Shown piece by piece: positions 23,513 through 41,633 of a stretch of DNA of 64,000 bases. The position numbers and the translations under genes are program-made. The notes beneath the pieces were generated by a model. It saw nothing but the letters and a program-made list of their open reading frames with translations, was not told the origin of the DNA and made no database searches. The number at the start of each line of letters is the position of its first letter. Position 1 is the first letter of the stretch. The DNA is from Paracoccaceae bacterium (GTDB lineage Bacteria > Pseudomonadota > Alphaproteobacteria > Rhodobacterales > Rhodobacteraceae), in the NCBI GenBank assembly GCA_902631295.1, contig CACOXV010000007.1, forward strand, positions 16,047 to 80,046. Reading direction: 5' to 3'.

Positions 23513-24571
23513 TTAAAATATATGAGCCTTTAGACGGTCATAGGTAAAAGACACCTGGCTTCCCATTTCTATATCAAGTGTTTCTGGTGAGGCAAATCTA
23601 AAAGGTACTTCACTTTTTGAGAGAAGTTCCACAACGGTTTCCGTACCAAGGCGTTCGACTAAGGTAACTTTACCGACAATCGCGCCGTTATCGTTAATTT
23701 TTAAATCCTGAGGTCTTATACCTAAATGTACTAATTCCCCAACGCCCTTTTCTTGCGAAACAAGTCTGATATAATTTGAGTTATGGCCATCAAATTCCAC
23801 TTTTCCACTTGTTTTTGGACTATTCACTGATATGAGTTTGCTTTCAAAAAAATTCATCTTAGGAGACCCCAGAAAGCCTGCTACAAATTTGTTTGCTGGA
23901 TAATTGAATAAATCCATTGGAGCGCCTACCTGCATGACTTCCCCATCCTTCAAGACAACAATTTTGTCAGCAAGTGTCATGGCTTCAACTTGATCATGGG
24001 TAACATACACGGTTGTCGCTCCCAATTGACGATGTAATTTTGCTATTTCCACCCGAGTATCATGACGAAGAGCAGCATCTAAATTTGAAAGAGGTTCATC
24101 GAACAAGAATACTTCGGGGTTTCTTACGATGGCGCGTCCAATTGCAACTCGCTGGCGCTGACCACCAGACAGGGCTGCGGGGCGCCTGTCGAGTAGGTGT
24201 TCCATCTGTAAAATTTTTGCTGCATCTTCAACACGCTGTTTAATTTCCATCTTTGGCATTTTTTGTAAATCGAGGGAAAAGGCCATATTTTGGAAAACAC
24301 TCATATGAGGGTACAGCGCGTATGACTGAAAGACCATTGCAATGCCTCTTTCCGACGGTGGAAGATCCATTACTTCTTTTTCCGCAATTATTATTTTACC
24401 ACTAGTTAATTTTTCAAGTCCAGATATCAATCTGAGTAATGTGGATTTGCCACATCCAGACGGCCCAACGAAAACCACAAATTCGCCTTTGTTTATTTCC
24501 AACTCAACGTCACGGATAACCTCTGTATTTCCAAAAGTCTTAGTCACACCTTGTAATTCTACATGTGCCAT
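23513..24571 (-). CDS. aglK: alpha-glucoside ABC transporter ATP-binding protein
   Basis: MalK/UgpC-type: Walker A GPSGCGKST, LSGGQRQRVAIGRA, C-terminal TOBE-like domain; follows an aglA fragment. Confidence 0.88.
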   Translation of the reverse strand: MAHVELQGVTKTFGNTEVIRDVELEINKGEFVVFVGPSGCGKSTLLRLISGLEKLTSGKIIIAEKEVMDLPPSERGIAMVFQSYALYPHMSVFQNMAFSLDLQKMPKMEIKQRVEDAAKILQMEHLLDRRPAALSGGQRQRVAIGRAIVRNPEVFLFDEPLSNLDAALRHDTRVEIAKLHRQLGATTVYVTHDQVEAMTLADKIVVLKDGEVMQVGAPMDLFNYPANKFVAGFLGSPKMNFFESKLISVNSPKTSGKVEFDGHNSNYIRLVSQEKGVGELVHLGIRPQDLKINDNGAIVGKVTLVERLGTETVVELLSKSEVPFRFASPETLDIEMGSQVSFTYDRLKAHIF

Positions 24572-24976
24572 TTAAATCTCCTCAAACGACGCTGTTAACG
24601 TTTTAAAATTGAAATTACAGTTAAGAGTTTGATCATCACTTTCACGGTCAAAACTTATTTCTGTATCATCGCCTGCTATATTCGAAATACAATTTGCTTC
24701 GGTCATTGCTGACTGCTTCTTGCGCCATTTCAAAAACTTTGCCAAATCATTGTAAATTGAATTTGGATCCAATGCACTATCGATCGCCGCTCTTTCTAAA
24801 TGCTTGTCTGAAATCGGTAGCCAAGTTGTATTTGCTTTAGAAAATCCGCCGTTTGGTTGATTTTTATTCCATACCATCGGAGTTCGGCATGTATCTCTAC
24901 CAAGAAAAGTTGGTGCAAATTCTATACCCCAGGGATCTTGCATCTTCTCTTTTGGAATATCATTAACATCCTCCAT
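24572..24976 (-). pseudogene. aglA: 3' fragment of aglA (GH13 alpha-glucosidase), fused in frame to an MFS 5' fragment
   Basis: MEDVNDIPKEKMQDPWGIEFAPTFLGRDTCRTPMVWNKNQPNGGFSKANTTWLPIS...DPNSIYNDLAKFLKWRKK. Confidence 0.88.
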
Positions 24977-25756
24977 ACCAAATCTTTCTACCATCATAAA
25001 TCCGGCGAAAACGACAAAAATTTGTCTTCGGGCTCCAGACAGAAATTGTAGTAAATAATAAAGCCAGTAACGTTTACGTATGACCATATTTTTGGTTTGC
25101 GGAACTGGAGCTTTGAAATTTGGAAAAATAATATACCCAATTAACGCCAAGGCAAAACAGGAAAGCCCTGCAAACATATATGCGGAATTAAAAGATAAAT
25201 TTAGCTTTTCCCAACCCAAAATTATAAAAATATAAGCAATTAGTGTTGCAGCAGATCCATATGCCATTAGTTGACCAAGCTTATTTGGAGCCTCTTCTTT
25301 TGAAAACCATTGAAGTTGCAAGGACTGATTAACTGTTTCAAAAAAATGAAAACCGACGGAACTTAAAAGGGTTATCGTCAATATGCCACTTAAAAAAGGA
25401 AACCAAGCAGTGACAGCAGTAGCGATCCCTAGAAGGGCAAGCATCGAGAGCGCTAATGTCTGCTCTCTTACAAAGAGTAAGATACTAATCACTCCCACCG
25501 CTAAAAACCCAGGAATTTCTCTGATAGTATGCAGCACGCCAATATCTAATCCATCAAAACGAATGACCTCTACGACAAAGTTGTTTAAGAGGGCAGACCA
25601 AACTGAAAATGCTAAAGGCAAAGCAACCGCCATTAATATCAATAAGGCTTCAGGACGCCTCCATTTTGGCAATTTGTATGCATTACGTACGGAAAAGTCT
25701 TCTCTCATAGCCTGCGTATAATTAAAATTTGTTGCCAAGAACAGTTGATAAATCAC
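24977..25756 (-). pseudogene. 5' fragment of an MFS transporter (C-terminal half missing)
   Basis: multi-TM ORF through RKRYWLYYLLQFLSGARRQIFVVFAGFMMVERFG, then switches to GH13 sequence; likely start at internal MREDFSVRN. Confidence 0.85.
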
Positions 25757-27954
25757 AAAAAACTTTGAGGATCCACATCAATTGTTAGGCGGACATCATT
25801 TTTTAAATTTACTCGCGATACCCATGATTTAACTGTACTTTGCATGGATGTACCCTTGTCCGCCTTGAGCAAAAGCCTTACCCGGTATCGACCACGTACT
25901 CGGGTTATTGGAGCTGGTGCCGGGCCATAGAGGGTAATCCCGGCAGAATTTAAAATTTTTGCACTTTTTGCTAATTGAAGTCCTAGTTCAAATGCATCTT
26001 CAGATTTCTGCGCTGAAATTAAGATGCCAACTAGCCGACCGTAAGGAGGCATTTTTGCACTCGCTCTACCTTCAGCTTCTGCTATCCAAAATTGTTCATC
26101 TTGGCCCTCAGAAATTGCTTTTATAACGGGATGCAGTGGTTGGTATGTCTGTAAATATGCGGCTCCTTTTTTATCACTTCGCCCTGCACGACCCGAGACC
26201 TGCCTTATAAGTTGAAAGGTTCGTTCGGCTGCTCGGAGATCTGACCCCTGTAAGCCCAAATCAGGATCAACAACACCAACAACTGTAAGATCAGGAAAAT
26301 TGTGCCCTTTAGCGATCAATTGGGTTCCAATAATTATATCACTATTACCGCGCGAAATTCTTTCCAATTCATCCTTCAACGATCTAGCAGATTTGTACAA
26401 ATCTGAGGATAATACAGTAATTGATGCCTCTGGAAAAGTTTTAGCAGCCTCCTCTGCTAATCTTTCAACACCGGGCCCTATTGGAGCAAAATTGCCCATC
26501 ACTTTGCAATTAGGACACGTTATGGGCATAGCCTTTGTTTCACCGCACTGATGACACATCAACCGTTTTTGGAACCGGTGCTCGATCATTGCAGTATCAC
26601 AAAAATCACAACCAATTCGCTCACCACACGAACGGCACAAAGTGACGGGAGCATAACCTCGACGATTCAAAAACAATAATACTTGCTCGCTATTATTTAT
26701 CGCCACATCGATTTTAGTCTTCAGGGTCGGCGAAATCCACTGATCAGATCGCAACTCCTCGTTCCTCATATCAATAATCTCAATATCCGGCAGAACAGAG
26801 GAACCGTATCTTTTCGTCAAGTTGAAACGTTTATATTTACCAGATTTAGCATTATTCCAGGTCTCTAAACTTGGGGTCGCAGATGCTAATATAACTTTTG
26901 CATTAGCCAAAGACGCTCTTAGCACGGCCATATCTCGCGCATTGTATAAAACGCCATCTTGCTGTTTGTAAGATGAGTCATGCTCTTCATCGACTACAAT
27001 AAGCCCTAACGACTCAAACGGTAAAAAAAGTGCTGATCGAGCACCAACTACTATTTGAGCCTGACCGCGACCCACCATTTTCCAGACCCTGCGACGCTCA
27101 GATTGAGAGATACCAGAATGCCATTCTGCAGGATAAACTCCAAACCGAGCTTTAAGCCGTTCTGTAAATTCGCCAGTTAATGCGATCTCCGGTAAAAGAA
27201 CTAATGCTTGTAGACCACCATCAATTACCTTCGCAATTGCCTCAAGGTAGACAGCAGTTTTTCCAGAACCCGTTACCCCGCAAAGTAATATGGAAGAGTG
27301 AGCATTTTGATCCAAAACTTTACTTAATTCGGAAACTACCCGTGCTTGATCTTCACTGAGCGGCCTTTTTGAATGGGTAGTATCCACTGCTGCATACGGC
27401 AAGTCCTTTGGCTGCATTTTAGAAATTAGGCATCCAGATGGTATCATGGCATTGATTACGGACGGTGAAACTTTAGCTAATTTAGCTAACTCTGAGATTG
27501 ATAGGCCAGTACCATCTGATTGGTCAAAGCTTTCTAAAACACGGGCTCTAGCTGAGGTCATTTTAAATTGACTTGGTACTTTTCCTCTAAATAAAAGTCT
27601 TTTATGGGTCTCTTGAGCCGCAATATCCCGCACCCGTGTAACCAATCGAAAAACCGAATATAATGGTGAAACAGTATAATCTGCAACTCTCCGAATAAAA
27701 TTTTGCAATTCGGGCTGTATGGGCCGATGTTCCAAAATGCTATCAATCGTTTTTATTTTCTTTGGCTCAATTTTTTCAGTACTCGCGCCCCATACCAAGC
27801 CCATGACAATACGTTTTCCAAAAGGAACAAGAACAATAGCACCTTTAAAACAGCCTGCACTTGGAGCTTTATAGGTAAATAACCTATCAACTGGCTGTGT
27901 CGTCAACACTTCGACCAACATTCCATCAGCAAAAAATTCTTGATCTTGTTTCAA
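25753..27954 (-). CDS. priA: primosomal protein N' (replication restart helicase)
   Basis: GVTGSGKTAVYLEAI, DEEHDSSYKQ, zinc-binding CRSCGERIGCDFCD...CHQCG. Confidence 0.97.
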   Translation of the reverse strand: MKQDQEFFADGMLVEVLTTQPVDRLFTYKAPSAGCFKGAIVLVPFGKRIVMGLVWGASTEKIEPKKIKTIDSILEHRPIQPELQNFIRRVADYTVSPLYSVFRLVTRVRDIAAQETHKRLLFRGKVPSQFKMTSARARVLESFDQSDGTGLSISELAKLAKVSPSVINAMIPSGCLISKMQPKDLPYAAVDTTHSKRPLSEDQARVVSELSKVLDQNAHSSILLCGVTGSGKTAVYLEAIAKVIDGGLQALVLLPEIALTGEFTERLKARFGVYPAEWHSGISQSERRRVWKMVGRGQAQIVVGARSALFLPFESLGLIVVDEEHDSSYKQQDGVLYNARDMAVLRASLANAKVILASATPSLETWNNAKSGKYKRFNLTKRYGSSVLPDIEIIDMRNEELRSDQWISPTLKTKIDVAINNSEQVLLFLNRRGYAPVTLCRSCGERIGCDFCDTAMIEHRFQKRLMCHQCGETKAMPITCPNCKVMGNFAPIGPGVERLAEEAAKTFPEASITVLSSDLYKSARSLKDELERISRGNSDIIIGTQLIAKGHNFPDLTVVGVVDPDLGLQGSDLRAAERTFQLIRQVSGRAGRSDKKGAAYLQTYQPLHPVIKAISEGQDEQFWIAEAEGRASAKMPPYGRLVGILISAQKSEDAFELGLQLAKSAKILNSAGITLYGPAPAPITRVRGRYRVRLLLKADKGTSMQSTVKSWVSRVNLKNDVRLTIDVDPQSFL

Positions 27955-40695: not shown

Positions 40696-41633
40696 AAGAG
40701 CCCCCATGAAAAATTTGTACCAAGCCCTCTGTCTACGAGAATAGAACCAAATTGTAAAAAAAGATACACTAGTGAGTACCGAAAAAATCTGCGCTCTACA
40801 CTAAAATTATCTTCCTCAGCTTCGTGATCGCCTCTCACCCAAATGTTGAACGCCATAGCTATGAACAATGAGTTAAGTACTAAGGCAGTTCCAAGATAAA
40901 CCCAGCCACCTAGCGAAGTAAAAGACGTAAATAATGCAAAAAGAGCTAATGAAATTGTATAGAAAAAAATATGGTTTCTGGTAGAACGCCGACCATGCGT
41001 AACTGTAAGCATTGGTACGCTTGCCTTTTCATAATCATCTCGGATGAAAAGGGCTAAAGCCCAAAAATGTGGTGGGGTCCACAGAAATATTAACGAAAAC
41101 ATAAGAACACTCTCAACTGATATTCCTGAGGTAGCAACGGCCCAACCAATCATAGGAGGAAAAGCACCTGCTGCTCCACCAATAACAATATTTTGGGGGG
41201 TCCATCTTTTTAACCATATAGTGTAAATCACAACATAAAAGAAAATAGTAAAGACCAATAACGCCGCAGCGAACCAATTTGCAGACAATCCAAGCATCAA
41301 AACAGAAATACCTGCCAGTGCAAAACCAAATGCTTTAGCTTCATCACCGGTAATTTTTCCAGTAGGAATTGGACGGTTTCTGGTACGACGCATTAGGCTG
41401 TCGATATCAGATTCATACCACATATTTAAAGCACCAGACGCGCCACCACCAAGTGCGATAAATATAATTGAAACTAATATTGTGAATGGATGCACCTCAA
41501 TCGGGGCCGCGATAATACCCACTAAAGCTGTAAATACGACCAAAATCATCACTCTCGGCTTTAAAAGAGCAATATAATCACTGATATCAGACTCAGTATC
41601 AAATTCGGCTTTTGCTAGAGTTGTATCACTCAT
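40692..41633 (-). CDS. ctaB: protoheme IX farnesyltransferase
   Basis: [39 protein letters not shown]. Confidence 0.97.

Follow-up and report, generated by a model that had tools for sequence, protein, structure and literature searches.

When an open reading frame (ORF) runs without interruption from a transporter into an enzyme, is it a gene or a product of the way in which the genome was obtained? The question is raised by a 394-aa ORF with a GTG start (24572-25756, minus strand) in the window, by which we mean the whole 64,000-bp stretch of DNA analyzed here, the last 64,000 bases of contig C7 (80,046 bp). The ORF is one open frame: ∼258 to 261 codons from the start of an MFS transporter gene run in frame into the final ∼133 codons of aglA, a GH13 gene. 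The first-pass annotation had described an MFS N-terminus fused to a GH13 C-terminus at these coordinates, and congener identity and Pfam matches agree with it on both counts. Residues 1 to ∼262 are 81 to 94% identical to the intact MFS transporters of congeners (comparison with the MFS genes of G012, G009, G013, G005, and G011), and residues ∼255 to 394 are 74 to 92% identical to the C-terminus of the congeners' 517- to 518-aa GH13 proteins (G012, G005, and G013). In Pfam, the chimera matches the end of the Alpha-amylase profile (positions 353 to 445 of 446). The features at the join and at the contig end are listed in Table 1.

Table 1. Features at the join and at the right end of the window (window coordinates)
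Feature	Position	Strand	Basis
aglK-like ABC transporter ATPase (MalK/UgpC type)	23513..24571	-	Pfam/NCBIfam
AglA-C, 3′ end of the GH13 gene aglA (final ∼133 codons plus stop)	24572..24971	-	Congener identity, Pfam
Junction, coding strand TTGGTATGGA	24972..24981	-	Alignments to parents
MFS-N, 5′ part (first ∼260 of ∼420 codons) of MFS transporter gene	24976..25756	-	Congener identity
priA	25753..27954	-	TIGR00595 PriA
Start of aglA (5′, codons 1-174), truncated at contig end	63478..64000	+	94% identity to G012 aglA 1-523

In its assembled form, the ORF would give half a transporter with an enzyme tail devoid of catalytic residues. The GH13 catalytic residues of the intact AglA of G012 are D201, E272, and D337, and all three lie upstream of the aglA portion in the chimera, which starts at codon ∼383; none of the Asp, Glu, and Asp residues that characterize the GH13 alpha-amylase family is therefore present. 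A hydropathy scan found 6 membrane segments in the chimera versus 11 in an intact relative transporter, where an MFS protein is expected to have two six-helix halves. The earlier reading that the GH13 part lacks its catalytic residues, that the MFS part is incomplete, and that neither half would be expected to function in its present form is in keeping with these predictions.

The same annotation held that full-length homologs with this architecture in many genomes would speak against it. We looked for such homologs and found no second MFS-GH13 fusion among the 61 genomes compared, none elsewhere among the 16 genomes of the genus, and none among the 80 GTDB loci listed. A conserved domain architecture was ruled out, as the fusion was in no other genome examined. 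The junction 22-mer TTTGGTATGGAGGATGTTAATG was likewise not found in any retrieved locus except the source genome's own. The dN/dS ratios were 0.10 to 0.11 for MFS-N and 0.07 to 0.10 for AglA-C, compared with 0.06 to 0.11 for the neighboring AglK and 0.11 to 0.20 for PriA. By these ratios, both halves look like working genes, without relaxed selection; gene decay, considered as a sign of age, was seen in neither.

To place the join in its genomic context, we compared it with the parent loci in relatives. In four genomes of the same genus (G005, G011, G012, and G013), the MFS gene and aglA lie on one contig, on opposite strands and 39 to 40 kb apart, and all four congeners that span the region keep the same order of the two genes. 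In relatives, priA comes before the MFS gene (the same order is found in G005 and G009), and two permease genes lie upstream of aglA and the aglK-like ATPase gene downstream (G005 also has the aglA-aglK order). We take this neighborhood to be the aglEFGAK operon of alphaproteobacterial sugar uptake, with which the relatives share the order two permeases, GH13, and AglK-type ATPase. The window, in contrast, has aglA as two pieces on opposite strands without the catalytic middle.

The whole of C7 was aligned to contig C35 of G005. Positions 41018 to 80046 of C7 match C35 19510-58517 on the plus strand, and C7 from 41025 down to 17017 matches C35 59141-88210, reversed. In window terms, bases 24972-64000, to the right of the join, follow the relatives' MFS-priA-...-aglEFG-aglA′ collinearly, and the sequence to the left runs through the relatives' ′aglA-aglK-... 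in reverse. Because both arms are collinear with G005, one of them reversed, and meet at the join, the join is, as judged by the gene order of relatives, not a local fusion but one end of an inversion-type rearrangement whose two loci lie 39 to 40 kb apart. The MFS/aglA chimera of the first-pass annotation is supported, but its treatment as a fusion gene has little support. A simple deletion between genes on the same strand was ruled out, since the parents are on opposite strands.

Alignments to the parents place the switch at 24972 to 24981, in accordance with the previous estimate of about 24974 to 24980, and the nucleotide alignment of MFS-N to all congener MFS genes ends at 24972. At the switch word TTGGTATGGA (24981-24972 on the coding strand), the MFS parent (G009) reads TTTGGTATGGATGTG and the AglA parent (G012) reads CTTGGTCTGGAGGAT. 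The 4 nt TGGA (24975-24972) are exact in both parents, and the longer word agrees at 9 of 10 bases, with one mismatch; a short homology at this point had been proposed. Assembly collapse at a long inverted repeat was ruled out, as only 4 to 10 bases are shared and no inverted repeat is present at the join.

The right end of the window is also the end of the contig (C7 80046), and it falls inside aglA after gene base 523, 603 bp short of the breakpoint. These 603 bp (aglA 524-1125), which carry the three catalytic residues, are absent from the source genome's assembly, and the aglA piece that follows them is the one joined to the MFS gene. Also absent from that assembly are the 3′ part of the MFS gene and prmA-ruvC-ruvA-ruvB beyond it; on G005 coordinates, the closest contig on this side, C58 (3,338 bp), stops 4.8 kb away from the breakpoint. 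Neither an intact MFS gene nor an intact aglA, second copies included, was found in the 70%-complete assembly.

The assembly consists of 67 contigs, with 70.5% completeness and 0.06% contamination. In all contigs sampled, numbering follows length, from 146,902 down to 2,033 bp, and the last four are 2,208, 2,111, 2,083, and 2,033 bp long. The closest sister genome is G012 (AG-457-F15). Its plate, AG-457, is one of Bigelow's single-cell plates, produced with a workflow that retains only contigs of >2,000 bp (PMC6122165; also PMC11247762). Because the contigs are sorted by size with a minimum of 2,033 bp and the sister comes from a single-cell plate, the source genome is probably a single-amplified genome. 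Benchmarks of the Bigelow single-cell workflow give 1.5 misassemblies per 100 kb (PMC6122165; also PMC11247762).

Taken with the geometry of the join, this probable origin makes it likely that the join is an MDA/assembly chimera, made in single-cell amplification and kept by the assembler. During MDA, a strand being copied by phi29 polymerase through the MFS gene would have lost its template at TTGGTATGGA; its freed 3′ end may then have paired with TTGGTCTGGA, an almost identical word in aglA, and been extended in the opposite genomic direction, and the assembler would have retained the chimeric junction. We thus infer that the join probably arose in vitro. The chromosome of the cell itself probably has the congener order, in which an intact MFS gene beside priA is separated by ∼39 kb from an aglEFGAK operon that is likewise intact.

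Published MDA chimeras offer a close comparison (Lasken and Stockwell 2007, PMC1855051): 85% of them are inverted, and most junctions have 2 to 21 nt of homology. In another data set, over 95% of the overlaps are 3 to 13 nt (PMC5372508). The present join has the inverted segments (with the relatives' order standing in for the true order) and the short shared word (4 nt exact, 9 of 10 with a mismatch), and it shares with the published inverted chimeras the loss of intervening sequence; it is found in one genome only. It differs in that its single-cell origin is deduced rather than recorded and in its spacing. Among the inverted chimeras, 83% have join points <10 kb apart and the remainder show no proximity pattern, with spacing of >10 kb in 69 of 406 (PMC1855051). 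A spacing of <10 kb is therefore typical but not obligatory, and the ∼39 kb seen here (39 to 40 kb in relatives) is unusual for an MDA chimera. We counted this spacing against an amplification origin, together with the absence of the intact arrangement from the assembly and the absence of any other inverted join in ∼258 kb of the source genome aligned to G005, which indicates that the genome is not riddled with chimeras. In its favor, we counted the dN/dS ratios of working genes in both halves and the position of the two absent pieces, the 603 bp of aglA and the 3′ part of the MFS gene, which both belong at the join; a leftover of 603 bp would fall below the 2-kb contig cut.

The main alternative is a real and recent chromosomal inversion of ∼39.6 kb by illegitimate recombination at a short word shared by the two oppositely oriented genes, which we consider unlikely. 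The geometry of the join fits such an event exactly: apart from the reversal of one arm, both keep the relatives' order as far as the breakpoint, and 39 kb is an ordinary size for an inversion. Moreover, aglA 524-1125, the MFS 3′ part, and prmA-ruvCAB would all fall in a single ∼5.4-kb gap separating C58 from the right-hand end of C7, so that the missing pieces need one gap instead of two. However, an inversion would break both genes and leave two reciprocal fusions, and only the MFS-N::AglA-C fusion is in the assembly; the reciprocal junction (aglA 5′ and middle parts with MFS 3′) was not found in this 70%-complete assembly. The event would also have to be very recent because neither of the broken halves has decayed, and the contig end would by chance have to lie no more than 603 bp from the second breakpoint. 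The retention of the gene order in four of four congeners spanning the region and the lack of repeats at the ends, with only 4 exact bases, further argue against it. The weights that we give to an artefact and to a real inversion are a matter of judgment.

More doubtful by far is the fuller scenario of a microhomology-driven 39-kb inversion in one wild marine cell that broke a sugar-uptake operon and gave rise to an expressed transporter-enzyme hybrid. An MFS-GH13 fusion gene under selection, with a functional membrane-bound product, is nearly excluded. Its reading frame is indeed open across the join, but an inversion-type join of oppositely oriented genes is always sense to sense, and an open frame thus has about a one in three chance of arising. 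Against a functional fusion also stand the loss of all three catalytic residues from the GH13 part and of about half of the membrane segments from the MFS part, as well as the absence of a homologous fusion from the genomes searched.

An assembly artefact, which the first-pass annotation had itself named as a refuting case, is accordingly the likeliest outcome in our assessment, and the MFS-N::AglA-C ORF is probably not a real gene. Any gene catalogue that includes ORF 24572-25756 would present a hybrid protein that is probably nonexistent and would mistakenly record the catalytic part of AglA as lost from the source genome. An in-frame "fusion gene" in a single-cell genome can be a chimera of amplification and calls for caution; the gene order of relatives exposes such chimeras at once.

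Several irregularities were seen in the sequences compared. In G012, a contig begins within the MFS gene: contig C14 (L033 1-41) starts 41 bases beyond the same MFS breakpoint, with the native MFS continuation. By a rough estimate (50 contigs in 1.9 Mb), the chance of such a start is well under 1% for one chosen genome. It may be a coincidence or may mark a spot that amplifies or assembles badly, and it is not a demonstration of the fusion. In G011, a Red Sea metagenome genome, aglA (L041 4461-5947) is split into frames of 318 and 169 codons by a ∼67-bp deletion relative to G005. Positions 1 to 17000 of C7, to the left of the window and into its start, have patchy, out-of-order, and partly inverted matches to C35 of G005, unlike the collinear remainder, and may form a variable or mobile region. 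Near 87.6 kb on contig C3 of the source genome (G000), the alignment leaves G005 C39 while 10 kb of that contig remains and resumes at the beginning of G005 C36, which may reflect an indel or a misjoin in either genome.
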